DNA of 64,000 nt from Sphaerochaeta associata (GCF_022869165.1 NZ_CP094929.1:3410001-3474000), one strand, 5' to 3'; positions 12,015-29,280 are shown, counted from the stretch's first letter. Made by a program: numbers and translations. Notes: a model not told the origin generated them from the letters alone.

Positions 12015-12026
12015 TATTCATTCTCC

Positions 12027-12944: not shown

Positions 12945-13831
12945 AGTGCAGCCTCCTTCTTGCTCAAATCGGAATTCAATTCTTCGATACCCTTTGCATA
13001 AGAGTCGTCATCGATGACCGCCCCGTGCCAGGTATTCTTCCCTTCGGTGAAGGAAACACCCTTGCCCTTGATGGTGTCGTAGATGACGGCCTTCGGCCAG
13101 ACATCGTCGCCGTCCATCCAAGCGAACGAGTCAAGGATTTCCTGTGTATCGTGACCGTTGTAAGCCTTGGGGGCAACGTTCCAGCCGAATGACTTCAGCT
13201 TCTCGGCAAGCGGTCCGAGGGGCATGATCTCGTCCACGGTTCCATCGAGCTGAACCTTGTTGTAGTCGATCATCAGAACAAAGTGCTCAGGCTTGAACTT
13301 GGCTGCACTCATGATGGCTTCCCAGCTCTGACCCTCGTTGAGACATCCCTCTCCGCTGATCACGTAGGTCCACCAACTCTTCTTGGAAAGTTTTGCCGCC
13401 ATCGCCATACCGAGGCCCACAGAAAGCCCATGGCCCAGAGCTCCGGTGGACATGTCCACACCCGGGAGCTTGTTCATGCATGGATGACCCTGCAGACGCG
13501 AGTCAAGCTTGCGGAACGATGAGAGTTCCTCGACAGGGAAGAACCCGCGGTGAGCAAGAATCGTATAGAGATTCATCGACGCATGGCCTTTGGAAAGGAT
13601 GATTCGGTCGCGGTCCTCCCAATGGGGATTGGCTGGGTCGATTGAAATGCGATTGAAGTAGAGAGCGGTGGTCAGCTCCGCACTGGATGCCGCCCCACCC
13701 CAATGGCCGGTTCCCCTGTCGTGCAGGGTATCGAACATTACGGTCCTGAAATATGCTGCCAAGGCGGAAAGTTCTTGTGCATTGAACGTTCGGTCCGGTT
13801 GGGAGAGCAACTCCTTGATACGTTTACTCAT
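12941..13831 (-). CDS. Transketolase-like protein, N-terminal (ThDP-binding) subunit
   Basis: 296 residues with RIILSKGHASMNLYTILAHRG, GALGHGLSVGLGMA and the thiamine diphosphate motif. The motif reads GEG (in ISGEGCLNEGQSWEA) instead of the usual GDG, with the matching Asn in DYNKVQLDG present; Glu can plausibly hold the Mg ion, but this is a deviation. Two half proteins replace one chain of about 660 residues. Start at ATG 13831 with AAGGAG 8 bases before. First gene of an operon driven by the promoter at 13910-13938 with a GntR-type operator over the transcription start. Confidence 0.88.
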   Translation of the reverse strand: MSKRIKELLSQPDRTFNAQELSALAAYFRTVMFDTLHDRGTGHWGGAASSAELTTALYFNRISIDPANPHWEDRDRIILSKGHASMNLYTILAHRGFFPVEELSSFRKLDSRLQGHPCMNKLPGVDMSTGALGHGLSVGLGMAMAAKLSKKSWWTYVISGEGCLNEGQSWEAIMSAAKFKPEHFVLMIDYNKVQLDGTVDEIMPLGPLAEKLKSFGWNVAPKAYNGHDTQEILDSFAWMDGDDVWPKAVIYDTIKGKGVSFTEGKNTWHGAVIDDDSYAKGIEELNSDLSKKEAAL

Positions 13832-13890: not shown

Positions 13891-13907
13891 TTGTGTACTG
13901 TATACAA
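13891..13907. promoter_or_regulatory. GntR operator at the transketolase promoter
   Basis: TTGTGTAC-T-GTATACAA is a 17-bp inverted repeat with one mismatch between arms. It overlaps the expected transcription start of the transketolase operon. The TGTATACA core recurs at 14137, 22649, 22678 and 26599. Confidence 0.65.
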
Positions 13908-13938: not shown

Positions 13939-14070
13939 AGGGATTCTTGTACATATCAATATTTTTACAGAAAATACAGCGCAATCTATGCGTATCTCAC
14001 AATAAAGCAGGAATAATGGCAACCTGGGAGGGCCAATGGCAGTGAGGAGTTTTTTTGTACACAATTATCA

Positions 14071-14127: not shown

Positions 14128-14778
14128 ATGCCCAAATGTATACAAAACAGCCTATCCGACCAAGTTTATACGATGCTCAAGGACCAGATTTTGTCCGGAC
14201 AGCTGAAGGGAGGCATGAAGATTCCCGAGGAATCATTGGCTGAGCAGTTCGGGGTTTCACGAACGCCCATCCGTGAGGCCATCAGACGCTTGGCCGAGTA
14301 CGGCTTGATCACCATCAAGCCCAGGAGCCATGCAACCGTCTCATTAATTTCCGAGCAGGAAGCCAGCGACATAGCAAAGGTTCGTGTCACCTTGGAGCAG
14401 CTTGCCATCGATTCCATCGATGAAGCCTCCTATACCAAGAACGTAAAGGAACTCTCTCGCTATGCCGCCGATTGCCAGTATGCCATGGGCATCGGAGACA
14501 GGGCGACTGTTTTCGAACAGGACAGCCTGTTTCATCTCGCCTTGATCCGATCCTCGGGAAACAGCGCCCTGATCAGCATCTGCGAACGCCTGGATGCAAA
14601 AATACAGCAGCTGAGAATCGCCCAGAACCTGCCTGAGGATGAACTGTCCTACTACCTTGGTCAGCACGCCCAAATGATGACGTTACTCAAGAACGGGGAG
14701 AAAGAGGCTTGCAAACGCCTGCTGTATGAACATATCACCCACGATTTGACCAGCCATGTCGGGAGCCGGCAGGCATGA
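14128..14778 (+). CDS. GntR-family (FCD) regulator, likely controller of the catabolic island
   Basis: 216 residues: winged helix (EESLAEQFGVSRTPIREAIRRLAEYGLITIKPRSHATVS) and an FCD ligand domain (FEQDSLFHLALIRSSGN, YLGQHAQMM, LLYEHITHDL with the expected acid/His metal ligands). AAGGAG lies 7 bases before ATG 14128. A TGTATACA palindrome occurs at 14137-14144, inside its own fourth to sixth codons, suggesting autoregulation. It is divergent from the transketolase operon and its stop overlaps the DUF362 start. Matching operators occur before the PdxA and cyclase genes, so I infer that it represses all three units. Confidence 0.87.
   Translation: MPKCIQNSLSDQVYTMLKDQILSGQLKGGMKIPEESLAEQFGVSRTPIREAIRRLAEYGLITIKPRSHATVSLISEQEASDIAKVRVTLEQLAIDSIDEASYTKNVKELSRYAADCQYAMGIGDRATVFEQDSLFHLALIRSSGNSALISICERLDAKIQQLRIAQNLPEDELSYYLGQHAQMMTLLKNGEKEACKRLLYEHITHDLTSHVGSRQA
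14137..14144. promoter_or_regulatory. TGTATACA palindrome inside the start of the GntR gene
   Basis: An 8-bp perfect palindrome identical to the core of the operators at 13891, 22647 and 26597, nine bases after the A of the start codon. Repressor bound here would block elongation of its own message. Confidence 0.45.
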
Positions 14779-15869
14779 CAAAAGAAGAAATTATCATCAC
14801 CTACGGGTCGGATGCTTCAATGATGACAAAGGCTCTCCTGAAACGTATCGACATCGAGAAGCTTCTTCCTGACAAGCAAGCCACCATTGCCCTCAAACCC
14901 AACCTCGTTGTTGCAGTAACGGCGGACAGCGGGGCTACGACCCATCCCGAGATTGTGGTTGCCATTATCGAGCACCTCCAAGGCCTGGGGTATAAAAATC
15001 TAAGCATCGTCGAAAGTGCCTGGGTTGGTGATTCCACCAAGGAAGGATTTCGAGTAAACGGCTACAACCAGATCAGCAAACACTACAAGGTGCCTTTGGT
15101 GGATGTGAAGGACGATGAGTATGTCAAGAAAACAGTTGACGGCATTACCATGGAGGTCAGCAAAACCATCCTGGAGACCGACTTTCTCATCAGTCTTCCC
15201 GTTCTGAAGGGACACTGTCAGACAGCGATGACCTGCGCGCTTAAGAACATGAAGGGAGTTCTCTCCGATCGTTCCAAACGACTCTTCCATACGCTGGGTT
15301 TGAACCGCCCCATAGCTGCGTTGAACAAGGTCAGGGCCGCCGACCTGGTCATTGTGGACAGCCTCAACGGCGACCTTGACTTCGAGGAAGGAGGCAATCC
15401 TGTTGAGACGAACCGGATGTTCGCCTGCCGCGACAGTGTGTTGTGTGATAGCTTTGGAGCAAGCCTGATGGGCTTTGAGACCAAGGATATCCCCTATATC
15501 GAGCTGGCACAGCAGCTGGGAGTTGGGTCTGCCGATCTTTCACAGGCTGTCATGGTCCAGCTCAATGAGCCGAGTGACGAGCTTCCTTCAAGACCAAGTG
15601 GAAGGGCCTCCTACCTTGGCAGGTTCACCGAGCCCGACAGTGCATGCTCAGCATGTTACGGGAATCTCATTCATGCCCTCAAGCGCCTGGACGAGGTGGA
15701 CCGCCTCAAGGATGTGAAGCAGCAGATCTGCATCGGCCAGGGCTACAAGGGTAAAAGCGATCCATCCAAGGTCGGAGTGGGAATCTGCACGAGAGGACTC
15801 GGGAAAAGCCTCCCGGGTTGTCCCCCGAAGGCTATTGATATGATTCGTTTCATCAAGGAGTTAGAGTAG
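14775..15869 (+). CDS. DUF362 family protein with four candidate Fe-S cysteines
   Basis: 364 residues. The DUF362 core is seen in IALKPNLV, the middle LKGHCQTAMTCALKNMKGVLSDRSK segment and VIVDSLNGDLDFEEGGNPV. The C-terminal part has CSACYGN, GICTRG and PGCPP, spaced like ligands of an iron-sulfur cluster. The biochemical role of DUF362 proteins is unsettled; some are linked to redox or cofactor chemistry. It is co-transcribed with the GntR regulator (ATGA overlap) rather than with the enzymes, and its 3' end overlaps the convergent aldo/keto reductase by nine bases. Confidence 0.8.
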   Translation: MTKEEIIITYGSDASMMTKALLKRIDIEKLLPDKQATIALKPNLVVAVTADSGATTHPEIVVAIIEHLQGLGYKNLSIVESAWVGDSTKEGFRVNGYNQISKHYKVPLVDVKDDEYVKKTVDGITMEVSKTILETDFLISLPVLKGHCQTAMTCALKNMKGVLSDRSKRLFHTLGLNRPIAALNKVRAADLVIVDSLNGDLDFEEGGNPVETNRMFACRDSVLCDSFGASLMGFETKDIPYIELAQQLGVGSADLSQAVMVQLNEPSDELPSRPSGRASYLGRFTEPDSACSACYGNLIHALKRLDEVDRLKDVKQQICIGQGYKGKSDPSKVGVGICTRGLGKSLPGCPPKAIDMIRFIKELE

Positions 15870-16829
15870 TGTCCGTGCCAGTGAATCGATGATCGCCCAG
15901 TCCTTGGCGGTAATGACAAGCTCTTGCGCCTTGCTGTTCTCTTCGATTTGGCTTGGCTTTCTTGCTCCGCACAAGACGTTCATCGTACTGGTTGCCTGCC
16001 TGGTCCATGCAATAACCAGATTTCCCACACTTGTATTGTACTTTTGTGCGAGGGTTTCAAGCGAGGTAAGTAAAGCCAGCACTTTGGTCCTGTTCTCCAA
16101 CTTGTACCAGACCACCGAGGCTTTTGCCGTCCCTACAACACTTTGGGAGAGAGCCTGCTTGCCGGTCAGGACACCACGCTCGAGCGGGCTGTAGGCCTGG
16201 AAGGTGATTTGGTTCTCTGCACAGTAGCCAGCAATGTCCGCCTTGGCTCGGGTAAGCAGGCTGAAACGCTCCTGCACCAATGAAGGAGTTCCGTACTTCT
16301 GATAGGCTTTCAACTCATCGAGGCTTACGTTGCAGGCTCCATAGCTGCGAATTTTCCCCTGTTGCCTGAGCAATTCGAACGTCTCGATTGTCTCTTCGAT
16401 CGGGGTATGGAATGGAGGAATAGACTGCCAATGGGTGAGAAGCAGATCGATGTAATCGGTCTTCAATCTTCCAAGACTCTCCTCAACCTGCTTAAGAATG
16501 CTATGCTTGCTGAGGTTGCGCCGGATGATGACTCCATCACGGCTTTTGTGTACCGACCCTTCATCGTCCGATCCCCAGACCAAGCCACACTTTGTGGCCA
16601 GTACCGCTTGATTTCGCTTGCCTTGCAAGGCAGTCCCAAGCAGCTGCTCACTCAAGCCATTGCCGTAGGCAGGGGCTGTGTCGATGAAGTTGATGCCAAG
16701 CTCGAGAGCTTGGTGCACGGTTTGAATCGCCAACGAAGGGTCACTATCCCCCCAGCTGTCCCCTCCTCCCATGGCCCAGGTTCCCAAGGCGATGGGAGAG
16801 ATATCGATGTCGGTGGTACCGAGTTTCAT
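15861..16829 (-). CDS. Aldo/keto reductase
   Basis: About 322 residues of the AKR family: LGTWAMGGG near the start, FIDTAPAYGNGLSEQLLG with catalytic Asp and Tyr, LATKCGL (Lys), LLLTHWQ (His in place) and IVIAWTRQ near the NADPH pocket. It should reduce a carbonyl of a sugar-derived intermediate. I start at 16829, where ATG overlaps the stop of the upstream isomerase gene and GGAG lies nine bases before; an ATG at 16844 in frame lacks a spaced ribosome site. Last gene of the unit that begins with the PdxA-like gene. Confidence 0.87.
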   Translation of the reverse strand: MKLGTTDIDISPIALGTWAMGGGDSWGDSDPSLAIQTVHQALELGINFIDTAPAYGNGLSEQLLGTALQGKRNQAVLATKCGLVWGSDDEGSVHKSRDGVIIRRNLSKHSILKQVEESLGRLKTDYIDLLLTHWQSIPPFHTPIEETIETFELLRQQGKIRSYGACNVSLDELKAYQKYGTPSLVQERFSLLTRAKADIAGYCAENQITFQAYSPLERGVLTGKQALSQSVVGTAKASVVWYKLENRTKVLALLTSLETLAQKYNTSVGNLVIAWTRQATSTMNVLCGARKPSQIEENSKAQELVITAKDWAIIDSLARTLL

Positions 16830-17740
16830 AGTACGCATCTCCATGCAGACAACAGAGTCCGTTTGGCATTTGCAACCACCAAGTCGGCATCCTCCCCAGC
16901 TTGGGGTTTCACCTCAAAAGAGAGAATATTGGAGCTGCCTTCAGCAAGATAGCCGATGTCCTTCATCTTCTGCAGGAATGATGCAAGATACTCGGTGTCG
17001 TTCTCGCTGCCGGGGTAGCCGAAACGCGGGTGCAAGTCGCCATAGCTTGGATTTGCGGGGTCGCTGATCAAGGTGTTTCCTACATGTACGTGGCGGATAT
17101 AGGGAATTATCGGGTCGACAGCCTCATCGACGGTCTCCCCTATCATCGGGATGTGGGAGCAGTCGATCATGATGCCGAAATTGTCGTACTCACTGCATAC
17201 CGCCTGGGCATACTCCTTGACCAAGGAGGCAGGACCAAGCAGTGATTTCTTATCGATGGTGTGGTCGAATACCTCCAGAACCACCGGCATGGAGCCTTTG
17301 CTTTTTGCATACGCGCAAATCTCTTTTGTGCTGGCGATTAAAGCGTTTAGGTATGCCTGCTCTTTTCCCGGTTCATATGAGCGGGAGAGGAATTGGAATT
17401 CCGAGCAACCCAATTCATAGGCCTCATCAATGCCTTCCTTCAACGCCGAAACAGCTAGTGCCCGTTCACTCTCATCGAGGCTGTTGATATTCAATTTCCG
17501 GGAAAAGAGCAGTGAATGGCCGCTGAAGGTGGAAGTGCAGTGAGCGGTTTCCACCATGGTCGGAACTGCCTGCTTCAAGGAGGCAAACGGCAGGGAGCCG
17601 AGTTCCACGACATTGAAGAAAGGGTCGGTCAGGATTGTTTTCAGGCAACAGCGGTACTCCTCTTCGCTTTTGATACAGGATGGGTAGGCCATGGAGAGGA
17701 CAATGCCGAGGTTGCAGTAATTGTGGATGCTCTCTTTCAT
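16826..17740 (-). CDS. TIM-barrel sugar isomerase/epimerase-like protein
   Basis: 304 residues with the xylose-isomerase-like metal residues in order: VVLEVFDHTID (Glu), GIMIDCSHIPMIGE (Asp, His), IRHVHVGNTLISDP (His) and LSFEVKP (Glu). Only weakly like the isomerase at 9852-10670, so it is not a recent duplicate. The substrate is unknown. The start follows the racemase-like gene by one base, with GAGG nine bases upstream. Second isomerase of the island. Confidence 0.78.
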   Translation of the reverse strand: MKESIHNYCNLGIVLSMAYPSCIKSEEEYRCCLKTILTDPFFNVVELGSLPFASLKQAVPTMVETAHCTSTFSGHSLLFSRKLNINSLDESERALAVSALKEGIDEAYELGCSEFQFLSRSYEPGKEQAYLNALIASTKEICAYAKSKGSMPVVLEVFDHTIDKKSLLGPASLVKEYAQAVCSEYDNFGIMIDCSHIPMIGETVDEAVDPIIPYIRHVHVGNTLISDPANPSYGDLHPRFGYPGSENDTEYLASFLQKMKDIGYLAEGSSNILSFEVKPQAGEDADLVVANAKRTLLSAWRCVL

Positions 17741-17741
17741 A

Positions 17742-18401
17742 TCACATAGCCTCGAGCATGTGCTTCACTTTCTCGCAGCAGAGAATCGGGGAAGCCAGAA
17801 CAGGGACTCCGGCAATTTTCTGCGCTTTTTCTTGCAGATGTCCCATGGATGCCTGGGCAAGGACAATACAATCGAATCCCTTCACTTCCCTGATCATCTC
17901 AAGGACAAGGCGGTCATGCGTGGTCATGTCACCGGCGCGCATTGCGGTATACGCAGGTTCGTGGTCCTGGGCATCCACCTCGATTTCAACACCGGCGAGT
18001 GCTGCTTCCTGCTCGAGCTTGGCGATGGTCGGCTTGAGGGTGCTCATGGCGGTTGCCACTACCTTGATTTTTTTCCCGATGCGTACCGCCTGTTCGGTCA
18101 TGGCATCATCGATGGCGACAATAGGTACATTGATGAACGGACGGATAAGCTGCACGGCAGGGGTGAGTGTTGAACAGGTAACAATAATCAAATCGGCCTT
18201 GGTAAGTTCACAAGACTTCAGGTCGTTGAAAAGACGATTGCGGTTCTCAACAGAAAAGCATCCAATCTCTGCCGGGTCCGAAGCCAAGAACTCATCCAAC
18301 AGGTTATGGATCTTCAACGGCTGCCCCACCACCTGCTCAAGCAGCTGGGGAAAACTTGCGAGTACCGGCCGTACCGTATGAACAATTGCTACACGTTTCA
18401 T
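17742..18401 (-). CDS. Asp/Glu/hydantoin racemase superfamily protein with one catalytic Cys
   Basis: 219 residues of the Asp/Glu racemase fold. The first catalytic loop is intact (VTCSTLTP), but the second position, normally GC-type, reads LAQASMGHL, with no Cys. Loss of one Cys rules out ordinary two-base racemisation; relatives with a single Cys act as decarboxylases or isomerases of malonate- or maleate-like acids. That makes a diacid intermediate plausible but unproven. GAGG lies 7 bases before the start. Between the TctC receptor and the isomerase, likely co-transcribed past the hairpin at 18427-18459. Confidence 0.75.
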   Translation of the reverse strand: MKRVAIVHTVRPVLASFPQLLEQVVGQPLKIHNLLDEFLASDPAEIGCFSVENRNRLFNDLKSCELTKADLIIVTCSTLTPAVQLIRPFINVPIVAIDDAMTEQAVRIGKKIKVVATAMSTLKPTIAKLEQEAALAGVEIEVDAQDHEPAYTAMRAGDMTTHDRLVLEMIREVKGFDCIVLAQASMGHLQEKAQKIAGVPVLASPILCCEKVKHMLEAM

Positions 18402-18496: not shown

Positions 18497-19486
18497 TTAT
18501 TTCCCGATGGAAGCAAGGTAATCCTTCTGGAACTGCATGCCATAGGTTCTGAAGGTCTCAGAATCCATGTAATCGGGAACCAGCTTCTGCTTCTCGATGT
18601 AGCCCTTGTTCCAATTCTCGGTCTCGGATACTTTCTTGAAGACGTCGGTCCAATAGGCTACAGCTTCAGCACTCATGGACTTGGGCGCTACGATGGATCT
18701 CCAGTTGGGAACCTCGACGTTCTTGTAGCCGAACTCACTGAGGGTGGGTGCAGAATTCAGGTTGCCGGGGAAACGACTGGTGGAAAGAGCCAAGATCGGT
18801 TTAATCTTGCCAGCTTCGACATACTGGGAAGCAGCAGCAGGCTTGGAGATCAAGAGGTCGAAGTGACCACCCAGGATTGCAGTGATGGCACCACTGGTTG
18901 CGTCGTGTGCGATGTAGGAGAACTGGTCCTCGGTTACACCGATTTCCTTGATCAAGGCAGCATGGCAACCGATGTCGTCACCCTTGGAACCACCAAGCAC
19001 AATTCTCTCGCCTCTCTTGAGGGCGGCCAAGACTTCCTCAAAGCTCTTGTACTTGGAGTACTCGCCGATGAAAAGCAGGTGCTTGTCAACAGCCATGTGA
19101 GCGATGGGTTGGAAGTTCTCAAAGCGGTTGGCAGTGTTCTTCACCATCGGCATGAGATCGCCGCTGTTGAAGGTAAGCAGAGTGTGGTCAGCCTGTACAC
19201 CTGCCTTGATCTGGGAGACCAAGAGGCGTCCTACTTCACCAGCTCCGTCGGTCTTGTACTGGACAACAACGTTCTGGCCGTTGAGCAGGTTCTCTGCAAC
19301 TGCGATATCCATGATGGTGCGGGTGAAAATATCGGAACCACCACCGGGGGAGCTGGTAACATACCATTCAATGTTCTTGGTAGGAACGAAGGCCTTTGCA
19401 GCACCAGTAGCTTCAGCCTGACCGGCAGCGAATACGGACATGCTTACGAGTAGCAGAATGCCAAGCAGAATAGCAAGTTTTTTCAT
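18497..19486 (-). CDS. tctC: TTT transporter receptor, TctC/Bug family
   Basis: 329 residues; signal peptide ending SVFAAGQAEA, then the Bug fold with IEWYVTSSPGGGSDIFTRTI (substrate carboxylate loop), VVVQYKTDGAGEVG and GGSKGDDIG. It delivers a tricarboxylate-like or other organic acid to the TctAB channel. AGGAG is 8 bases before the start. It is the third transporter gene, after TctB and TctA, with the palindrome at 19512-19527 between it and tctA. Confidence 0.87.
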   Translation of the reverse strand: MKKLAILLGILLLVSMSVFAAGQAEATGAAKAFVPTKNIEWYVTSSPGGGSDIFTRTIMDIAVAENLLNGQNVVVQYKTDGAGEVGRLLVSQIKAGVQADHTLLTFNSGDLMPMVKNTANRFENFQPIAHMAVDKHLLFIGEYSKYKSFEEVLAALKRGERIVLGGSKGDDIGCHAALIKEIGVTEDQFSYIAHDATSGAITAILGGHFDLLISKPAAASQYVEAGKIKPILALSTSRFPGNLNSAPTLSEFGYKNVEVPNWRSIVAPKSMSAEAVAYWTDVFKKVSETENWNKGYIEKQKLVPDYMDSETFRTYGMQFQKDYLASIGK

Positions 19487-19511
19487 AGTCTTTTCTCCTA
19501 TTTGTTTCTTT

Positions 19512-19527
19512 CAGGACACCTGTCCTG
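19512..19527. other. Perfect 7-bp-arm hairpin between tctA and tctC
   Basis: CAGGACA-CC-TGTCCTG can fold in the message between the membrane and receptor genes. There is no U-tract. It may protect a processed tctC message, since receptors are needed in excess; this is inference. Confidence 0.4.
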
Positions 19528-19558
19528 GAATTCACATCTCATTTCCAACCAAGTTGGA

Positions 19559-21070
19559 TTACTTCTTTTTTAAAATGCCCGCTTTTCTCAATACAAACTT
19601 CACAACAGGGGTCAATACTATGGCAAAGAGAACGAGCAGCAGGAAGGCCGAAATCGGTTTGTCGAAGAAGATGCCAAGCTTTCCGTTGCTGATGATGAAA
19701 GCCTTTCTCATATTCGATTCAAGCAGCGGTGCAAGTACGAATGCCAGGAGCATCGGAGCAACACTGTAGCCATTACGGTCGAGAATGTAGCCGAATACGC
19801 CTGAGAGGAACATGATGATCACCCCGTACATGGAGTTTGAGGTGCTGTATCCGCCGACGACGCAGACAACAGTGATGATCGGAATCAACATACGTACCGG
19901 AACAGTCAGGATCTTGATCAGGAAAGGGATGATTCCCACTGCAATAATCAGGGTCAGGATGTTCGCAAGGAACAGGCTGGCGATCAAGCCCCAGGCGAAG
20001 TCAGGATTGGTGGAGAAGAGCAGCGGCCCAGGATTGAGGCCCCACATCATCAGGCCGCCGAGCAGGACGGCACCGGTACCGGAGCCCGGGATACCCAAGG
20101 CAAGCAGAGGAGCAAAGGCACCAGCTGCAGCAGCATTGTTGGCAGATTCACATGCAGCAATACCCTCGATTGCACCGCTTCCGAGCGGCTCTTCACTCTT
20201 GAAAGCCTTCTGCATTGCATAGCCAAGGAATGCACCGGTGGTTGCTCCTGCGCCGGGTAAAACACCGACAAATGTTCCCATGAAACCACTTCTGATAGCA
20301 GGAGGCAACAGTCTCTTCAGATCGTGAAAGGTCAGCAACGATCCTTTGATGGTCAACTTCTGGTTTACCTTGCCATCAATTGTCTTGTTCCTTTCTTCCA
20401 TCAGTTTGAGCACTTGGCTGAAACCAACAGCACCAATGACAAAGGGAGTGAACGGGATGCCTCCAAGCAGATACATGTTTCCAAAGTCATAGCGCGGACT
20501 GCCGGTAAGAGTGTCCATACCCATTGTTGCCAGAAGTATGCCGACCATTGTCAGCACAACACCTTTTGTCGGATTCTCGCCGACCAACCAGCCGATGGAT
20601 GTCATCGCAACCAATAGAAGCGATGTCATTTCCGCTGGACCGAACTTCAAGCCTACGTTTGCAAGCAGGGGGCCCATGAAGGTAAGAATCAGAATTCCGA
20701 TGGTACCACCAGTAAATGAGGATATGTTTGCAGTAAACAAGGCTTGACCAGGACGGTTTCGCTTGGTAGCCATCGGATATCCATCCAAGGCAGTCATAAC
20801 TGCCGGGGAGTCACCGGGGATATTGAGCAGAATGGCACTGAAGGCACCGCCGTACATATTGGAGTAATACAGGGCTCCAAGCATGATGATTGCGGTTGTG
20901 GGATTGAACTTATAAGTAAGGGGCAAAAGCAAGGCAACGCCTGCAAGAGATCCGATACCTGGCATGGCTCCTACAATCAACCCAAGTATTGCTCCTAATA
21001 AGGTTGCAAGGATGTTTTCCATGGTAAAAAGGACTGAAAAGCCCATGAACAGCATTTGTAAATTTTCCAT
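19559..21070 (-). CDS. tctA: TTT transporter large membrane subunit, TctA family
   Basis: 503 residues and about twelve membrane segments. It has the family signature near the N-terminus (LGLIVGAMPGIGSLAGVALLLPLTY), GALYYSNMYGGAFSAILLNIPGDSPAVMTALDGYPMA, and the internal repeat PGAGATTGAFLGYAMQK and NNAAAAGAFAPLLALGIPGSGTGAVLLGGLM. It forms the Na+-coupled import channel with TctB. AAGAGG precedes the start. Confidence 0.92.
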   Translation of the reverse strand: MENLQMLFMGFSVLFTMENILATLLGAILGLIVGAMPGIGSLAGVALLLPLTYKFNPTTAIIMLGALYYSNMYGGAFSAILLNIPGDSPAVMTALDGYPMATKRNRPGQALFTANISSFTGGTIGILILTFMGPLLANVGLKFGPAEMTSLLLVAMTSIGWLVGENPTKGVVLTMVGILLATMGMDTLTGSPRYDFGNMYLLGGIPFTPFVIGAVGFSQVLKLMEERNKTIDGKVNQKLTIKGSLLTFHDLKRLLPPAIRSGFMGTFVGVLPGAGATTGAFLGYAMQKAFKSEEPLGSGAIEGIAACESANNAAAAGAFAPLLALGIPGSGTGAVLLGGLMMWGLNPGPLLFSTNPDFAWGLIASLFLANILTLIIAVGIIPFLIKILTVPVRMLIPIITVVCVVGGYSTSNSMYGVIIMFLSGVFGYILDRNGYSVAPMLLAFVLAPLLESNMRKAFIISNGKLGIFFDKPISAFLLLVLFAIVLTPVVKFVLRKAGILKKK

Positions 21071-21079
21071 ATCCGCCTC

Positions 21080-21556
21080 TTAGTACGCAATCAGGTTGTA
21101 GATGAAGCCCTTGGGGAAAGGGACCCCAAGCCACATCACAAACGCACCGATGACGATTGCCATAATGACGGCAAATCCAATCAGGGTGGCCTTCCAGCTG
21201 AATTTTTCAAACCAGCGCAGCCACAGCAACACAAAGATTGCCAAGCTTGGCAGCATCCCGATTACCAGCGTTGAGAGCATGATGGCTATCACGCCGAGGG
21301 CGGGATACCAGTTTGCGATTGGAAATCCAGGGCCCTCCTCTTTCAGCGAGCCAATAAAGGCAAGAATACTCAGACCCAGCAGCATAAACCCGATGATGGT
21401 GGGGAAAAAGCCAGGGAGAGGGCCTCTCACCTCATGCATGAATCCATACTTGGTAATTCCGAAATAGATGAAAACAATAGCAATAATTGCAGTCACCACC
21501 GGAATCACCATCTTGCTTGTAATCTTCTTGGTCAGCATATGTACGATACTCCTCAT
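21080..21556 (-). CDS. tctB: TTT transporter small membrane subunit, TctB family
   Basis: 158 residues, four predicted membrane helices, with the TctB-like GPLPGFFPTIIGFMLLGLSI segment. The first ATG overlaps the PdxA stop (ATGA); an alternative Met six residues in (21538) has GAGGAG ten bases before it and may be the real start. Pairs with TctA encoded ten bases downstream. Confidence 0.85.
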   Translation of the reverse strand: MRSIVHMLTKKITSKMVIPVVTAIIAIVFIYFGITKYGFMHEVRGPLPGFFPTIIGFMLLGLSILAFIGSLKEEGPGFPIANWYPALGVIAIMLSTLVIGMLPSLAIFVLLWLRWFEKFSWKATLIGFAVIMAIVIGAFVMWLGVPFPKGFIYNLIAY

Positions 21557-22560
21557 GCCTGCTTCTGCAGGTGAATTGCCATGCGGGAAGCCATCTTGAC
21601 TGCATTCTCAAATGCACTGGTCTTCACGATGCCCTTCCCTGCTATATCATAGGCCGTACCATGGGCACAGGTCACTATCGGAGCCGGAAGTCCTCCTGCT
21701 ATGGTGATACCTTCATCAAAACCACGAAGCTTCAAGGCGATCTGCCCTTGGTCGTGATACATCGTCACCACTCCGTCGAACTCTCCGCGGAAAGCCTTGA
21801 TGAAGGTAATGTCACTCGGATAAGGACCGGAAGCATCAATACCCATCTCTTTGGCCTTGGCTATTGCGGGTTCAATGACATCAATCTCCTCACGACCGCA
21901 CAAGCCGTGTTCACCGGCATGGGGGTTGAGGGCTGCAAGGGCAAGGCGGGGCTTTGCGATACCGCTGTTCTTCAGAGAGGCATTTGCCAGTCTTACTGCA
22001 CGGAGGATTCTATCAACGGTAAGGTTCTTGCTCACTTCAGCTATAGGGATGTGGCTGGTGGTCCTGGTGGTCCAAAGGTCACCGAGTACGTTGATCTCTC
22101 CAAAGGGTTCGGTGTGATTGAAGAGCTGAGCAAGATAGTGATGCTCGCTTTCCAGCTCACATCCAGCTTCCTTCATGCCTGCCTTGTTGAAAGGCCCGAA
22201 ACAGAAGCCTTCGATTTTTTTTGCCTTGTACAGGTCAACACCCAGTTTCAATCCATCGAGGTTGGCTTTGCCAGCTTCAATAGTCAGTTTTCCGAAAGGC
22301 ACGTTGACAGGGTCCTGATCCTTTCGATCGAGAACGGCCAAGTCTGCATTCCAGTCGATTTGATCGATATCGGTAACTATCTGCAAGGGTACGGAGGAGC
22401 CTACGATGCCGAAGGCACGCTGGAGAATGCGTACGTCTCCAATGATGACAGGTCTGCAATAGGCGGCAAAGAAATTCTGTACTGCAAGCTTTGCAATGAT
22501 TTCAGGTCCTACTCCAGCACCGTCGCCGATTAACATACCCAACACAGGTTTATTGTTCAT
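21553..22560 (-). CDS. PdxA-family dehydrogenase (PdxA2-like, probably catabolic)
   Basis: About 335 residues of the 4-hydroxythreonine-4-phosphate dehydrogenase family: GDGAGVGPEII, LESEHHYLAQLF (metal His region), LNPHAGEHGLCGREE and VVTMYHDQGQIALK, each with a metal-ligand His. Family members oxidise a hydroxy group next to a carboxylate, and the product decarboxylates. It heads a transport and catabolism operon and not a vitamin B6 operon, so a PdxA2-type catabolic role (threonate- or erythronate-like phosphate) is likely. The DUF1537 kinase that normally supplies such substrates is absent here. Start at 22560 with GGGAG seven bases before. Confidence 0.83.
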   Translation of the reverse strand: MNNKPVLGMLIGDGAGVGPEIIAKLAVQNFFAAYCRPVIIGDVRILQRAFGIVGSSVPLQIVTDIDQIDWNADLAVLDRKDQDPVNVPFGKLTIEAGKANLDGLKLGVDLYKAKKIEGFCFGPFNKAGMKEAGCELESEHHYLAQLFNHTEPFGEINVLGDLWTTRTTSHIPIAEVSKNLTVDRILRAVRLANASLKNSGIAKPRLALAALNPHAGEHGLCGREEIDVIEPAIAKAKEMGIDASGPYPSDITFIKAFRGEFDGVVTMYHDQGQIALKLRGFDEGITIAGGLPAPIVTCAHGTAYDIAGKGIVKTSAFENAVKMASRMAIHLQKQA

Positions 22561-22621
22561 GAAAAACTCCCTTTCTATACTACAGAGGCACAAACAGAGT
22601 GAGCCCGTTGCTATTGATATA

Positions 22622-22635
22622 GCAACTTGCGTGCC
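22622..22635 (-). promoter_or_regulatory. Sigma-54 (-24/-12) promoter of the PdxA/TctBAC unit
   Basis: On the minus strand TTGGCACGCAAGTTGCT has GG (22635-22634) and GC (22623-22622) separated by exactly ten bases, matching the RpoN consensus closely. Transcription is expected near 22610. An inverted repeat GTTGCTAT-TGAT-ATAGCAAC (22607-22626) overlaps the -12 element and start site. Confidence 0.8.
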
Positions 22636-22646
22636 AACTTTATTCT

Positions 22647-22686
22647 ATTGTATACAATTTTGATTTTCTTACGTTTTTGTATACAA
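22647..22686. promoter_or_regulatory. Two GntR operators upstream of the PdxA sigma-54 promoter
   Basis: ATTGTATACAAT (22647-22658) and TTGTATACAA (22677-22686) are perfect palindromes with centres 29 bp apart, about 11 bp upstream of the -24 element and between it and the activator block at 22771. The same pair with the same spacing lies at 26597-26637. Confidence 0.75.
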
Positions 22687-22770
22687 GTATCTCGTGATTG
22701 AAGAACTAAATACGTGACTGTAGGTATGGATTTTACACAGAACTGAATGGGTGCTCAGTGGATGTTGCAA

Positions 22771-22835
22771 TGTTTCATAAATATGTTTCATGTTCCATTT
22801 GAAACGATTTTGAAACATATACAGAGCAGTGTACA
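22771..22835. repeat. Enhancer-like block of TGTTTCA/TGAAACA repeats (copy A)
   Basis: TGTTTCA at 22771 and 22784, TGAAAC at 22800 and TGAAACA at 22811 make an interleaved inverted arrangement. The block continues to AGCAGTGTACA and matches 26718-26782 at 58 of 65 positions by hand alignment. It lies about 135 bp upstream of the sigma-54 promoter, a normal enhancer distance, and probably binds the Fis-type helix-turn-helix of the activator at 26791-28668. Confidence 0.7.
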
Positions 22836-22882
22836 TCCAGAAGATGTAAAAACGCCTAACAAATATTCAATTGATGCAAAAG

Positions 22883-22911
22883 AAAAATCGCTGAGCAGAA
22901 CGCTCAGCGAT
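22883..22911 (-). terminator. Strong terminator after the DctP gene
   Basis: On the minus strand ATCGCTGAGC and GCTCAGCGAT form a perfect 10-bp stem with a 5-nt loop followed by TTTTTCTTTT. It ends the cyclase/TRAP unit and insulates the enhancer of the PdxA unit. Confidence 0.88.
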
Positions 22912-22925
22912 ACAAACATGTTCAC

Positions 22926-23906
22926 TTACTTATTCAGAAGCTTCAACATCTCGTCACCATACTGAGTGCTGAAAAGTGATTGCGAACCGGACATCAAACT
23001 CTTAAATGCCTGCCTATCAGGATTCTCATTCACTGTCACTCCAGCAGCTTTGATATTCTTCAGATAATTTGCATTCTCTGTATCGTTGACCGAGTATACG
23101 ACGGCCTGAGCATCCTTGGCAGCCCTCTTGATGATTTCCTGCTGTTCAGCAGTCAATCGAGCCCAAGTCTGTCCGCCTGCACTGAACAACATCGGGGTGT
23201 AGACATGTGCCGTAAGTGACATGAACTTCTGGACTTCGTGGAATCTCTGATTATAGATTTCACTGAGGGGATTCTCCTGACCATCAACGACACCCTGCTG
23301 CAACGCAGAGTAGAGTTCTGACACATCCATCGGTACCGGAATGGCGCCCGCACTCTCCCATGCTTTTACCTGGAAGGTAGCCGGCAGGGTCCTGACCTTC
23401 AAACCCTTCAAATCTGCAGGAGAATTAACAGCTTTTTTGGAGTTGGTAAGATTGCGGAACCCAATCTCCCAGAACGTCAGGGGCTGAATACCCTTCTTTG
23501 CAAGTTTCTCACTGATTGCCTGGCCTGCAGGACCTGCGACCGCAGCTCGTGCTTCAGCAACCGAGTCGAACATATAAGGAAGTTCAAAAACCTGAATTTC
23601 AGGAACGAGGCTGGAGTAGTAGGCGTCACCACAGACACCAAAGTCGATTGTTCCCTGTTGCATCCCACTTACCATGGATGAGGGGGAGCCAAGAGTGGTA
23701 TCATAAAACACCTTGATCTCAATCGTTCCATTCGAGTACTCGGCTACCTTCTCAGCAAACTTTGCCATGCCCTGTCCACCGGGACTAGAAGCAGACATAC
23801 CCCCTGTGGAGGCACTGAACTCAAGCTTTTTGCCTTCCTGTTGCCCACCACCAAACACCATTGCCATACCAACTACGAGAACCACCACCAATGCAATTTT
23901 TCTCAT
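22926..23906 (-). CDS. dctP: TRAP transporter receptor, DctP family
   Basis: About 326 residues with a signal peptide (MRKIALVVVLVVGMAMVFGGGQQEG) and DctP features: STGGMSASSPGGQGMAKFAEKV, FYDTTLGSPSSMVSGMQQG, FELPYMFDSVAEARA, LKGLKVRTLPATFQVKAWESAGAIPVPM (carboxylate-binding Arg) and VDGQENPLSEI. It feeds the separate DctQ and DctM proteins encoded upstream. Start at 23906 has GGAG seven bases before. Not close to the receptor at 8370, so the ligand probably differs. Confidence 0.9.
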   Translation of the reverse strand: MRKIALVVVLVVGMAMVFGGGQQEGKKLEFSASTGGMSASSPGGQGMAKFAEKVAEYSNGTIEIKVFYDTTLGSPSSMVSGMQQGTIDFGVCGDAYYSSLVPEIQVFELPYMFDSVAEARAAVAGPAGQAISEKLAKKGIQPLTFWEIGFRNLTNSKKAVNSPADLKGLKVRTLPATFQVKAWESAGAIPVPMDVSELYSALQQGVVDGQENPLSEIYNQRFHEVQKFMSLTAHVYTPMLFSAGGQTWARLTAEQQEIIKRAAKDAQAVVYSVNDTENANYLKNIKAAGVTVNENPDRQAFKSLMSGSQSLFSTQYGDEMLKLLNK

Positions 23907-23941
23907 TTCATGACTCCTTTCTATTTTCTCCCTACACATTT

Positions 23942-25219
23942 CTATTTACCAAGACTTGGCAAGAACAAAGAAATCTGTGGAACAAATATGATTAGCAAGA
24001 TTGCAAAAAGCATTGCGAAAATAAACGGCATTGCCTTTTTCCCAACAACAAGTACTGGTCTTTTTGAAATATTCGAAGCAACAAACAGTGTCATTCCTAC
24101 CGGAGGGGTAACCAATCCAATACAGAATGTTGCAACCATGACTACACCGAAGTGAATCGGATTGATCCCCATCGCAATTGCAGATGGCGTCAAAATCGGT
24201 GCAAAAATGAGCACTGCAGGAACAGGATCGAGGAACATACCGACCACTAATAAGATCACCGAGATTATCAACATAAATACATACGGGTTGTCTGAAATCG
24301 TAGAGCTCAGCAACGCTATTTGTTGAGGAAGTCCTTCACGGGTCATGATCCAACTGAATAATTGCGTGACGGCAACAATACCAAGGATGATACCCGTACC
24401 CTTGATGGAATTGAACAGACACCTTAAAAGAGCCTTGATCGTCAATTCCTTGTAGATGAAGAGTCCCACGATCATTGCATAAAGACAGCTGAAGGCTGCA
24501 GCCTCCGTAGGAGTGAATATTCCCGAATAAATTCCTCCAAGAATGGTTACCGGTGTAAGTAACGCCCAGATAGAGTCCTTGAACGACACAACTACACGCT
24601 TGAGTGAAAACTTTTCACTGCTTCCATATCCTTTCTTGATGGAGATGATCACCGTCACAATCATCATGGAAACAGCCATCAAGATTCCGGGAAACAACCC
24701 GGCCAAGAGCATATCGCCTACAGAATTATTCGTGGAAACGCTGTACAGGACCATAAGGATGCTGGGGGGAATCATCGGACCAAGTGTACCACCTGAAGCT
24801 TGGAGAGCAGAGGCAAAATCGATATCGTAGCCGTTCTTTACAAGTGCAGGGATCATCATGCCGCCGATGGCTGCAACACATGCAGCACCGGAACCCGTCA
24901 TGGCTGCAAAGAATGCACTAGCCACAATTACCACCAATGCAAGACCACCGGGAAGGCTCCCGACCAAGGCAGTTGAGAATGATATTATTCGTTTGGAAAT
25001 GCCACCAGATTCCATGAGTGCCCCAGATATGATGAAGAAAGGGATGGCCATCAAGGTATATGAGCCAACACCGCCCAGCATCTGGTTTGCAACAATACTC
25101 ATCGGTATGTTCATGAAGCCGATGATATAGACGATTGCCGCAAGGCCCATTGCTCCGACGACAGGGATTCCAAAAAACAGGAACGCCATAAAAAATACAA
25201 TGATCAGGCTACTTGTCAT
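23942..25219 (-). CDS. dctM: TRAP transporter large permease, DctM
   Basis: About 425 residues, twelve or more membrane helices, typical DctM length. It has FLFFGIPVVGAMG, MAIPFFIISGALMESGGISKRI, FFAAMTGSGAACVAAIGGMMIPAL, LGPMIPPSILMVLYS and LVTPPVGMTLFVAS. It translocates the acid bound by DctP with Na+. Start at 25219 overlaps the DctQ stop (ATGA), with GAGG seven bases upstream. Confidence 0.92.
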   Translation of the reverse strand: MTSSLIIVFFMAFLFFGIPVVGAMGLAAIVYIIGFMNIPMSIVANQMLGGVGSYTLMAIPFFIISGALMESGGISKRIISFSTALVGSLPGGLALVVIVASAFFAAMTGSGAACVAAIGGMMIPALVKNGYDIDFASALQASGGTLGPMIPPSILMVLYSVSTNNSVGDMLLAGLFPGILMAVSMMIVTVIISIKKGYGSSEKFSLKRVVVSFKDSIWALLTPVTILGGIYSGIFTPTEAAAFSCLYAMIVGLFIYKELTIKALLRCLFNSIKGTGIILGIVAVTQLFSWIMTREGLPQQIALLSSTISDNPYVFMLIISVILLVVGMFLDPVPAVLIFAPILTPSAIAMGINPIHFGVVMVATFCIGLVTPPVGMTLFVASNISKRPVLVVGKKAMPFIFAMLFAILLIIFVPQISLFLPSLGK

Positions 25220-25713
25220 ACCGAGGCCTCGCTTTCTACAGGGCTTGCCTGTATAAGGTGATACGTATCTGTGAGGAGAATGGTCAACCAAATCAAGCTT
25301 CCGATGCTCATCGCCAATGTGGTGATATACACAGGGATATTCAGGATTGCCGTAAACTGTTCAGTCCTGGCTTGCAGAAAGACAATTTTCCAACTCTGAA
25401 AACACACCACCGCAATAAATACGATGAACAGCAGATTCTGGATGATGCCGACAATCTTTTTAGTGGTTCCACGGAGGGCATCCTGAAAAATAGTAATGGT
25501 GATGTGACTTTTTGTTACACTTGCCATAGCAGCACCCATGAAAATAACCCAGTTGAACAAGAGAACCGTCAGTTCCTCATTCCAGGGTATGGCAATTTTA
25601 AAAACGTAGCGTGTAAGAATTGCTATATTCACAATCATCACCCATACAAGCACAATAAAACCGAGAATGTATTCAAAGCGTTGTTTAAGTATCATACGTT
25701 TCTGGAAATCCAT
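25216..25713 (-). CDS. dctQ: TRAP transporter small permease, DctQ
   Basis: 165 residues, four membrane helices, with the DctQ motif IPWNEELTVLLFNWVIFMGAA. Start at ATG 25713 with AAGGAG eight bases before; an earlier GTG (25722) would overlap the ribosome site. Lies 13 bp after the cyclase gene in the sigma-54-controlled unit. Confidence 0.88.
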   Translation of the reverse strand: MDFQKRMILKQRFEYILGFIVLVWVMIVNIAILTRYVFKIAIPWNEELTVLLFNWVIFMGAAMASVTKSHITITIFQDALRGTTKKIVGIIQNLLFIVFIAVVCFQSWKIVFLQARTEQFTAILNIPVYITTLAMSIGSLIWLTILLTDTYHLIQASPVESEASV

Positions 25714-25726
25714 ACAATACACTCCT

Positions 25727-26383
25727 TTATACGCGTGCTATCGCCCGAACAGGGCAACCATCGATATGCTCGAATTTCAAGGGAAGACAAATAAACTCAC
25801 ACTCCTCGCTTCCTATTGCATGGAAGTTTGTGAGGTACTCAATCAACAAAATGTTATTACGTAAAAGGATGGTATGTGTCTTTTGCTCCTCTGGAGCAAC
25901 TGCTCGCTGCTGCAAAAGACGTATGGTATAATCCTGAGGAAAATCAAATGCTACTGCAGTTGGATTCTGTTCCTTGATCCAAAGGATGGCATCATCGGTC
26001 AGGTAGGGAGCATTATCCCAGAAATCCTTGGTTTCCCAGGATGTTTCCAAACCCCAGTCAGTCCGAATCAGCAGGATGGAGTGCAGGTGCTTACCGGCAG
26101 CTGCCATCGCCAAGTCCTCTCTGGTAATGGCATGCATCGCAATACTTTGCTTTTGAACATACAACACAGAAGCCATACCGTTGTAATGTTCAAGCGGGAA
26201 CTGATTGCTATCAGGATATTCCAATCCCGTATGTCGGGGGAAATCGATATGGGAGAACCAATGAGACTTCATGGTAAACTCGGAAACTTGCCAGACATCA
26301 CCTTTTTCAAAAGATGAAACCGTATCCCTTTTCAGCGGATATCTCCAGTGCGACTGTATAGGCAAACTCAAATCTACGAACAT
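25727..26383 (-). CDS. Cyclase-family (kynurenine formamidase-like) hydrolase
   Basis: About 218 residues of the PF04199 family, metal-dependent hydrolases of amides, esters and lactones. The metal motif, usually HxGTHxDxPxH, appears as SHWFSHIDFPRH; the GT pair is replaced, so activity may be altered. LIRTDW and VAFDFPQDYTI resemble later family motifs. I start at 26383 because a GGGGGGAT ribosome site precedes it and the region before it is leader. First gene after a sigma-54 promoter, ahead of a TRAP transporter: it may open a lactone or cyclic form of the imported acid. That function is inferred. Confidence 0.72.
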   Translation of the reverse strand: MFVDLSLPIQSHWRYPLKRDTVSSFEKGDVWQVSEFTMKSHWFSHIDFPRHTGLEYPDSNQFPLEHYNGMASVLYVQKQSIAMHAITREDLAMAAAGKHLHSILLIRTDWGLETSWETKDFWDNAPYLTDDAILWIKEQNPTAVAFDFPQDYTIRLLQQRAVAPEEQKTHTILLRNNILLIEYLTNFHAIGSEECEFICLPLKFEHIDGCPVRAIARV

Positions 26384-26570
26384 GTCATCCCCCCTGGTTT
26401 TTTTCAGCACGCAGGATTCCCTTGCGCAGGGAATCTGCTCAATATTTTGCAACGGAATAGTCATCATGAATCTCGATAGTCACCATTACCAATATCCAAA
26501 CAAAGAATATTGCAACAAGAAGCACTTGCATGCTTCCTGTCCCGGCCTTCTCACCCACATGCACAAACAA

Positions 26571-26586
26571 GCAACTTGCATGCCAA
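26571..26586 (-). promoter_or_regulatory. Sigma-54 (-24/-12) promoter of the cyclase/TRAP unit
   Basis: On the minus strand TTGGCATGCAAGTTGCT places GG (26584-26583) and GC (26572-26571) ten bases apart. Nearly identical to the promoter at 22622-22635. Transcription should begin near 26559, leaving a leader of about 175 nt. Confidence 0.8.
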
Positions 26587-26596
26587 CTTTTTATCT

Positions 26597-26637
26597 ATTG
26601 TATACAATATTGATAATTGAGCGAAATAGTATACAAT
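26597..26637. promoter_or_regulatory. Two GntR operators upstream of the cyclase sigma-54 promoter
   Basis: ATTGTATACAAT (26597-26608, perfect) and ATAGTATACAAT (26626-26637, one arm degenerate) have centres 29 bp apart, as at 22647-22686, and lie about 12 bp upstream of the -24 element. Confidence 0.72.
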
Positions 26638-26709
26638 TAACTATTGATTCACACGACACTTATGGAACAATAGATTTTGTGATGACAGAGAAAACACTTT
26701 CCTTGAGTA

Positions 26710-26782
26710 TGTTTCAATGTTTCATGAATTCGTTCCATGTTTCATTTGAAACTTTTTTGAAACATATACAGAGCAGTGTACA
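26710..26782. repeat. Enhancer-like block of TGTTTCA/TGAAACA repeats (copy B)
   Basis: TGTTTCA at 26710, 26718 and 26738; TGAAAC at 26747; TGAAACA at 26758. It ends eight bases from the stop of the sigma-54 activator gene and about 134 bp upstream of the -24 element. It shares 58 of 65 bases with 22771-22835. Confidence 0.7.
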
Positions 26783-26790
26783 GTCGCATT

Positions 26791-28668
26791 CTACTGTTCG
26801 AATGCGGCAAACTTGCGCCATAGCGTCGTCCTGCTCAGACCCATCTGCCTGGCGAATTGCTCCCTGCTCAAACCGCTGGCAAGAAATTGCTGATAGAGGG
26901 CTTCATCCGATAACTTGGGTTTCCGAAGACCCTTTCTGGGCGGCTCATCGTGCATCTGCAGACTTGTCGACCCAATATCAAGCAGATCTATCTCCTTGAC
27001 GGTGACAACTTCAGCCGTATTGAGGATGGCCAGCCGCTCTGCAGCATTTCTGAGCTCCCGGATGTTCCCCGGCCAGGGAAAGACCTTGAGAGCGGTTATC
27101 GCCTGTTCGGTGAGCAGCGGCTCCTGAAGAGAATGCCTTCTACAGTATTGCTGGACGAAATGCCTGAAGAGGATTCCAATGTCCTCCTGACGCTCACGCA
27201 GAGGTGTCAATTGCAGACTCAAGAGGCTGATCCTATAAAATAGGTCCAAACGGAATTTTCCCTCTCTTACCTTCTCAATTATCGCACTGTTTGCCGCACT
27301 GATGATCCGCACATCCACAGGGATGACCATGTCGGCCCCGATCTTCCGGACCTCGCGTTCCTGCAGGACCCTGAGAAGCTTTGCCTGCACGATAATCGGC
27401 ATCTCGGCGATTTCATCGAGGAAGAGCGTCCCCTTGTGGGCAAGCTCGAACAAGCCTGGCTTGCCTCCCTTTGCAGCACCGGTGAAGGCTCCGTCGGTGT
27501 ACCCGAAGAGCTCGCTCTCCAACAGTTGTTCCGGCAATGCTGCACAGTTGACGGCAACAAAAGGCTCCTTGGCCCGAGGCGATGCATTGTGAATGCTTTG
27601 GGCGAAGAGTTCCTTACCTGTTCCTGTCTCACCGAGAAGCAAAACAGTTCCGGGAACCTGGCTGAAACGCTTTGCCTTTTCCACCAACGCTTGCATATGG
27701 GCGTTCTGGGTAACAATATCGGAAAAGCTGTAGCGTGCCACCAAGCCTTTGCGATTGAGTTCGGTACGGATTTTATGCTCGGTCCGCCTGATGGCCTCTG
27801 CATTCTGGAACGTGTACAAAAAGCCAGCCTTCTTGTCGTCCATGCTGATCGGCTGCTGGGTTACCAGGCACTGCTGACCGTTGATGGTTACCAGCTCTTC
27901 CTTTTGATTTCCGGAAGTGAACGCTTCTGCCCACCTGCTGGAAAAATACACATCCTCCACCGGCAGACCTTCCAGGGGACTCTTGGCGAACAAGTTCTCG
28001 GCTTGTCTGTTCCCTGCGATGATCTGCCCGTTGCTGTTGATAGCAAGCAAGGCATAGGTTGCATTATTGAGCAGGGTTCCCAGAAGATTTCCCCTGGTCT
28101 GGGCACGGTCGAGGGAACGAGCAGCGCCGACTGCCTCGTTCACTGCATGCACCACCGCTTGGTAGCCGGTCTTAACATGGATATAGGAGAGGTTGCGCTC
28201 CTCACAGATCCTGCACATGGTCAAGCCGCCCACGAATACCGTACATCCAAGTTTCTGCAAGGTTGAGACACCTTCAATGACATCGTTTTGGTCGGTGACT
28301 TGGAATACAGAGACATCGAGGCCAAGCAAGGTGGTCAGCTCATCCTGCTCGCACAACTGTTCGTTGGTGATCAGGCCGATACAACCCCTGGGCGAGACGG
28401 TTTTTGCCTGGGCAAGGGCGGAGAGCAAATCGGCATTGCTCCAGTTGATGGGAACTACGTGCACCGAAGGCTTCTGCAAGGCGATAGCCGTCGCTGTAAT
28501 TCCCCGAGCCACGATGATGTCGGCATCCAGGGGTTCTATGACCTGGGGGTCGGTCCCGAATATGTGCGTAGTGCTGACTGACAGGTCTTGGAGATCGAAG
28601 GTATGAATGACCTCTTCGAAAGCCTGCTGCAGTTCAAGATAGGGTACAACGATCAGAATTTTTATCAC
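26791..28668 (-). CDS. PrpR-type sigma-54-dependent activator
   Basis: 625 residues. Order: PrpR_N-type sensor (about 1-185), PAS domain (about 195-290, [21 protein letters not shown]), AAA+ domain with Walker A GETGTGKE, the sigma-54-contacting loop GAFTGA, Walker [12 protein letters not shown] and [10 protein letters not shown], then a Fis-type HTH ([22 protein letters not shown]). PrpR_N domains bind small carboxylates, so it should sense an intermediate of the pathway and activate the two -24/-12 promoters through the TGTTTCA blocks. Start is GTG 28668, GGAG seven bases before; longer forms overlap its own promoter. Confidence 0.9.
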
Positions 28669-28686
28669 TGCGACTCTCCGCCTGCC

Positions 28687-28715
28687 AGTGTAGCATGGAC
28701 CGCCTCTCTTTACAA
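28687..28715 (-). promoter_or_regulatory. Sigma-70-type promoter of the sigma-54 activator gene
   Basis: Minus-strand TTGTAA (28715-28710) and TACACT (28692-28687) are 17 bp apart; the start would fall about 12 nt before the GTG codon. The activator is thus made independently of sigma-54. Confidence 0.55.
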
Positions 28716-28743
28716 AGCTTGGTCTATCTTGGTATTGTCGGCT

Positions 28744-29280
28744 ATGACTTTTACAACCATCCTGCAATACCTGCTTTTGGCTCTTCTGGCTGTAGTGACA
28801 ATATTCAACTTCTATTCATTGACCGTCGGCAAAAAGAAGCGAAACCAGGCAAAAATCAATTACCAACAGACTTTGAGCGCCCTCGAGCGGAAAGCATTCG
28901 AACTGATGAAGCAGAAGAACCTGAAGTTCGATGTAAAGCAAGGGTATATAAACGACCTCAATGACGGGATCCTGCTGACCTTCGACACCACGCATAAAAC
29001 CGTTGCCGTGGTGCTCAAGGATGCCGAATACCTGTTCGGATACGATGAATTCATCTCCTCTACCCAACACTACGAGACATTGGAGAACAACAAAATCTCC
29101 AACATCACCGTAGAGATTGAGACGAAGGACAGCATCATCAGCCTGCTCTTCGGGTCAAAAGCATGGAAGCCAAACTCCTACCTGGGAAAATTCCTGATCT
29201 CGGATTCCCGTGAGTTCTGTACCCTTCTGGAGCGCTATTGCTTGGAGAAGGAATCTAATTCGCCTTCGGCTGATCAATGA
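28744..29280 (+). CDS. Small membrane-anchored protein of unknown function
   Basis: About 178 residues: one N-terminal membrane helix ([20 protein letters not shown]), a basic stretch (GKKKRNQAK), then a soluble mixed domain of about 140 residues. I do not recognise the family. ATG 28744 fits the start of the helix, but no good ribosome site precedes it; a start a few codons upstream (TTG) is possible. Divergent from the sigma-54 activator. Its 3' end overlaps the convergent mscS gene by 26 bp. Confidence 0.6.

Follow-up and report, generated by a model that had tools for sequence, protein, structure and literature searches.

A duplicated sigma-54 control region with candidate GntR/FCD operators precedes TTT and TRAP transporter operons in Sphaerochaeta associata

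Genes and operons of the locus

The window analysed here is a stretch of 64,000 nucleotides from the Sphaerochaeta associata genome (NZ_CP094929.1:3410001-3474000). Two transporter operons lie on its minus strand, divided by an intrinsic terminator after dctP (22887..22911, -). The upstream one begins with a PF04199 putative cyclase or metal hydrolase of the arylformamidase/isatin hydrolase superfamily (25727..26467, -; true start likely 26383), which is followed by a TRAP transporter (22926..25722, -) composed of DctQ (25216-25722), DctM (23942-25291), and DctP (22926-23939). The other begins with a PdxA-family dehydrogenase (21553..22593, -; true start likely 22560) and the tripartite tricarboxylate transporter (TTT) proteins TctB, TctA, and TctC (18497..21556, -). 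The rest of this pdxA operon (15861..18401, -) encodes an Asp/Glu racemase-like protein (17742-18401), a ketose 3-epimerase-like TIM barrel (16826-17740), and an aldo/keto reductase (15861-16844).

A third proposed target operon (10737..13831, -) contains a split transketolase (12941-13831 and 12027-12944) and an iron alcohol dehydrogenase (10737-12014). Divergent from it is the gene of a GntR-FCD regulator (14128..14778, +). The end of gntR is overlapped by a gene for a DUF362 protein (14775-15869), which is found beside gntR in relatives too.

The sigma-54 promoters and the PrpR-type activator

The initial annotation had proposed a -24/-12 pair on the minus strand ahead of the two transporter operons. 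We found the element TGGCACGCAAGTTGCT (22621..22636, -) before pdxA-TctBAC, where it is conserved in genus relatives, and TGGCATGCAAGTTGCT (26570..26585, -) before cyclase-DctQMP. In both promoters GG and GC are 10 bases apart and the sequence is a near-perfect TGGCAY-N5-TTGCT. Taken from the -12 position, the transcription starts are predicted near 22610 for pdxA-TctBAC and near 26559 for cyclase-DctQMP. Exact TGGCAYGNNNNTTGCW matches number 13 in the whole genome (3.55 Mb), two of which are the window promoters. The earlier reading depended on the presence of rpoN, and one full Sigma54_DBD match (6.8e-49) was found in the genome, together with five strong sigma-54 activator domains.

The PrpR-type activator gene that had been reported beside the cyclase-side repeat block is located at 26791..28767 (-), and its listed start is probably too early. 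Pfam analysis detected the PrpR_N (81-221) and Sigma54_activat domains in its product. The AAA+ region (351-518) contains the Walker motif GETGTGKE and GAFTGA, and a C-terminal HTH completes the features of a sigma-54 enhancer-binding protein. The HTH sequence SRTTLWRKF is close to SRTTFWRRL of E. coli PrpR. An inserted region that is missing from E. coli PrpR had no Pfam match; from its position and general knowledge, we take it to be PAS-like. Against the PrpR equivalog TIGR02329 the protein scored 363 bits, below the cut-off of 499, and we therefore call it PrpR-type rather than PrpR. The methylcitrate cycle genes prpBCD are absent beside the activator gene, whose neighbours in the window and in relatives are TRAP, TTT, and PdxA genes.

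The enhancer blocks

Upstream of each promoter lies a block of GTTTCA/TGAAAC half-sites, at 22762..22835 (-) in control region 2 (pdxA side) and at 26709..26782 (-) in control region 1 (cyclase side). The latter contains GTTTCAAATGAAAC and starts directly after the stop codon of the activator gene. The block identity of 58/65 described before was reproduced for the 65-bp core, where the best of the shuffled regions gave 36/65, and it extends to 66/74 over the whole blocks. In both blocks the half-sites are 139-181 bp upstream of the -24 GG, in agreement with the position of about 135 bp given earlier, and this distance fits the 100-250 bp between enhancer and promoter in known systems (PMC6615313). 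The genome-wide search for TGTTTCA and TGAAACA suggested at that time was run with a spacing of N3-30; it returned four palindromic places across the 3.55 Mb, the window blocks being two of them, and the reversed control returned none.

The prp promoter of E. coli K-12 has GTTTCA and repeated TGAAAC ahead of a TGGCAC...TTGC promoter, and the published PrpR enhancer of Salmonella is CGTTTCATGAAACG (PMC4987338). Because the half-site is common to both, the window blocks with their inverted GTTTCA...TGAAAC half-sites are regarded as PrpR-type enhancers; their inner palindrome has two central bases more than the published one.

Candidate GntR/FCD operators in the control regions

Between the enhancer and the -24 element, each control region carries two TTGTATACAA-type sequences 29 bp apart, which are candidate operators of GntR/FCD type and had been missed by the initial annotation. 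In control region 2, operator O1 is located at 22648..22657 (about -47 to -38) and O2 at 22677..22686. In control region 1, O1 is located at 26598..26607 and O2, with one mismatch to TTGTATACAA, at 26627..26636. The exact sequence occurs at only 8 places in 3.55 Mb, and three of them are in the control regions. The operators fit the TKGT/ACMA consensus of the FadR subfamily, whose centre is 2 nt long in some groups (PMC4494728).

The GntR-FCD protein encoded 8 kb away is proposed, from proximity and motif class, to bind TTGTATACAA. Three further operators were found between gntR and the transketolase operon, at 13898-13907 (CTGTATACAA), 14055-14064 (TTGTACACAA), and 14136-14145 (ATGTATACAA), and the operators flanking gntR are kept in relatives. 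A protein with GntR HTH and FCD domains was found here together with TKGT/ACMA operators, both at the promoter of its own gene and at those of its proposed targets, as in a FadR-subfamily regulon. The bound protein could activate instead of repressing.

Conservation and duplication of the control region

We searched 139 genomes of the family for the composite pattern TTGTATACAA-N6-14-TTGGCAY-N5/6-TTGC. It was found in 18 of them, all from the genus Sphaerochaeta (here, this genus). Seventeen relatives have a single copy each, located before pdxA, and the window genome alone has two. The reversed pattern gave no match in the same 139 genomes. The 16 genus relatives examined, in some of which the locus is truncated at a contig end, share one arrangement: the activator gene, then the enhancer, the operators, and the sigma-54 site, then pdxA-TctBAC and mostly the same genes downstream. 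The O2-O1 spacing is 29 bp wherever both operators were detected. Since the composite pattern occurs once per relative and before pdxA, these comparisons indicate that activator-[control region]-pdxA-TctBAC is the ancestral unit and the pdxA-TTT promoter the ancestral target. A close cyclase homologue (>50%) was found only in the window genome and in three other genera of the family. From this distribution and the gene order in relatives, it is most likely that the cyclase/DctQMP cassette entered the window genome in the gap between the activator gene and pdxA, together with a duplicated control region. Neither this species-specific insertion nor the ancestral target had been recognised by the initial annotation.

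Copy 1 of the control region (cyclase side) retains the ancestral activator-enhancer junction, and copy 2 retains the promoter-pdxA leader. Identity to the control region of the nearest relative is 77.6% for copy 2 versus 68.9% for copy 1. The support at the relevant nodes of the control-region tree was weak (46-61), and for the ancestry of copy 2 we therefore rely on pairwise identity and the junctions. Between the two copies, 103/115 positions are identical in the elements and 49/97 in the spacer (Fisher p 2.7e-10). The binding sites were kept while the spacer diverged, which indicates selection on both copies and argues that both function.

The association of activator, enhancer, pdxA, and TTT was found across the family. 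No composite of O1 and sigma-54 site was found in other genera among the 139 genomes, though the activator/enhancer/pdxA part is kept there. In genome G080, TctBAC and cyclase-DctQMP lie in one cluster, twice, and in one copy of that cluster GTTTCATGAAAC precedes the cyclase, with an imperfect -12 element. In genome G048, the stretch from the activator to the cyclase holds TGAAAC sites and a sigma-54 site close to consensus. No sigma-54 site was found before the cyclase in the cyclase-TRAP operons of G035, G038, and G068, so the link of sigma-54 to TRAP is not universal. In three other species, a second, distant TTT follows the TIM-barrel gene in the pdxA operon (L099:9880-14193 in G113, L104:9940-13015 in G114, and L097:10740-13318 in G111). 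Upstream of the inserted TTT is a sigma-70-like promoter overlapped by the operator TGTATACAGTATACAA, and in L099 an amidohydrolase-family protein follows it.

Possible substrates of the two operons

Organic acids are the cargo of TTT and TRAP transporters. By sequence, DctP is close to several TRAP receptors of solved structure, among them 4p9k/4pak, and we take these to belong to the pantoate/D-erythronate ligand class. This class of TRAP receptors has been reviewed (PMC5812351). Among the enzymes, the TIM-barrel protein has a ketose 3-epimerase-like fold (TM ~0.7), and the cyclase, a relative of arylformamidase and isatin hydrolase, may serve to open a cyclic precursor. The alignment of the window PdxA with 15 orthologues showed ESEHH for GHTE, T for N, and IVTC/IATC for IRTS at residues of the substrate site in canonical PdxA. 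The protein is therefore probably a distinct enzyme subfamily, PdxA by homology only.

The TRAP receptor class and PdxA2 together had pointed to D-erythronate or threonate as the substrate. A PdxA-family dehydrogenase with TRAP/TTT acid transport is also found in the PdxA2/DUF1537 tetronate pathway; unlike that pathway, the window cluster has conserved changes in the PdxA substrate site and no DUF1537 kinase, and the two DUF1537 genes of the genome lie elsewhere. The candidate is weakened by both differences, and the altered substrate site of the PdxA subfamily makes the classical tetronate pathway doubtful. We infer that a sugar-acid-type substrate is likely.

It is plausible that both operons feed one pathway, here a carboxylate or sugar-acid pathway, since these modules also occur together in related clusters of other genomes. 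Shared regulation is no proof of a single pathway, the cyclase family and the PdxA family are both broad, and an intermediate common to the two operons was not found, so that they might be co-regulated with unrelated substrates. We consider this rather unlikely, as the cassette was inserted into a cluster devoted to one pathway and carries the two-regulator switch of that cluster, the same modules are paired twice in G080, and other species have inserted a different TTT (with an amidohydrolase in L099) into the pdxA operon under the same operator.

Proposed control of the two operons

The conserved enhancers and promoters, the lack of a comparable enhancer cluster among the places found elsewhere in the genome, and the known PrpR half-site support well the earlier proposal that one activator controls both TTT and TRAP. 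With high confidence, we propose that two copies of a composite sigma-54 control region allow the PrpR-type activator to co-induce both operons, with the GntR/FCD protein as a gate. From its upstream end, each region has a PrpR-type half-site enhancer, two candidate GntR/FCD operators at distances of ~70 and ~42 bp from the predicted start, and a -24/-12 promoter that looks strong. The activator would respond to a metabolite of the pathway through its N-terminal domain and bind both enhancers, and would then loop to sigma-54 RNA polymerase and open both promoters, so that the pdxA-TctBAC and cyclase-TRAP operons would be induced together. The GntR/FCD protein would occupy the loop operators as well as those of the divergent gntR/transketolase promoter, and most likely represses until its own ligand arrives, by blocking either the loop or the upstream edge of the polymerase. 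The elements, their conservation, and a duplication confined to this genome can be read from the sequence directly, whereas the binding events, the ligands, the substrate, and the sign of GntR control are what we infer from it.

For glnAp2 and nac, repressors that bind within the loop from enhancer to sigma-54 promoter have been described, together with a looping model based on excluded volume (PMC4740811). The sigma-54 cel operon of Bt is under the control of CcpA (PMC10864463). PrpR-type activation with GntR repression is favoured because the enhancer distance and these loop repressors fit. The GntR/FCD protein might instead be a co-activator or an architectural bending protein that replaces IHF and promotes the loop. 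The operators do lie within the loop, spaced at a constant 29 bp in almost every relative; some FCD proteins, such as CitO, activate (PMC4746285), and in synthetic sigma-54 enhancers helical phase sets the sign of the effect of a loop-bound protein (PMC4740811). The operator over the sigma-70-like -10 region upstream of the inserted transporter in L099, L104, and L097 is nevertheless in a classical repressor position, and we judge a promoting role unlikely.

It is very improbable that only the ancestral pdxA-TctBAC promoter works and that the cyclase/TRAP copy, left over from a tandem duplication, is decaying: control region 1 has a diverged spacer and a mismatched O2, and the cassette is unique to the window genome within the genus, but enhancer, operators, and -24/-12 are 90% kept against 51% identity in the spacer, a sign of selection, and the genes downstream of this copy are intact and in order.

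Returning to co-induction from two working copies, the cassette was most likely added with its duplicated control region, and a second import route would therefore have joined the regulon. On balance we give about even chances to a broader reading, in which a two-key switch of PrpR-type activator and GntR/FCD repressor was copied whole for a horizontally acquired transporter and hydrolase cassette, in a genus where this locus has repeatedly taken up different transporter modules, some of them accompanied by a hydrolase, and placed them behind the same operator.

Comparison with known systems

Like PrpR/prpBCDE of Salmonella and E. coli, the window system has an activator with PrpR_N, AAA+, and HTH, its gene adjoining the target, and a TGGCAC-type sigma-54 promoter preceded by GTTTCA/TGAAAC half-sites. 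It differs in the extra PAS-like region, the sub-cut-off score, the lack of adjacent prpBCD, the transport and sugar-acid-type targets, the added GntR operators, and the duplicated region. As in glnAp2, nac, and Bt cel (CelR/CcpA), the operator of a second regulator lies in the loop region or beside -24, whereas here the regulator is a pathway-specific GntR/FCD protein with two operators conserved in the genus. The FCD domain, the TKGT-AT-ACMA palindrome, and the divergent autoregulated cluster resemble FadR-subfamily sugar-acid regulators (DgoR, UxuR, HypR class), but two operator pairs of the window sit on sigma-54 promoters.

We found no described case of TTT and TRAP under one sigma-54 activator in the open-access literature. 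The parts are of known types, and it is their arrangement that illustrates how an existing regulon takes in a new transporter. The locus offers a testable two-signal sigma-54 regulon for acid uptake, extends the PrpR-type enhancer motif to activators other than PrpR, and provides a natural before/after comparison in which promoter duplication would draw a new transporter into a regulon with only the binding sites kept.

Other occurrences of the motifs in the genome

A relaxed enhancer pattern matched 13 places genome-wide, two of which are the window blocks and four of which are parS-like. The latter, GTTTCACGTGAAAC palindromes ~100 bp apart that resemble the parS sites of ParB, lie outside the window (G000:C1:3549528-3549825). 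No enhancer cluster comparable to the window blocks was found elsewhere with this pattern, and two places were viewed in context as candidates for a wider activator regulon. The place at 246986 lies inside a long ORF. The one at 746505 is a group of three half-sites in the gap separating two ORFs, ahead of a GntR/UTRA gene, and no sigma-54 site was found within the next 4 kb.

Three of the 13 exact TGGCAYGNNNNTTGCW matches are grouped just before the window (G000:C1:3404992, 3405235, and 3405485), in tandem, ~250 bp apart, and precede one ORF of 231 aa. A second PdxA gene lies next to a DUF1537 kinase gene at 1.98 Mb (G000:C1 1976611-1980271), near KdgT and a LarA-like gene. An exact TTGTATACAA is located there between KdgT and the LarA-like gene, upstream of the latter; it could be due to chance, or be a possible further GntR target.
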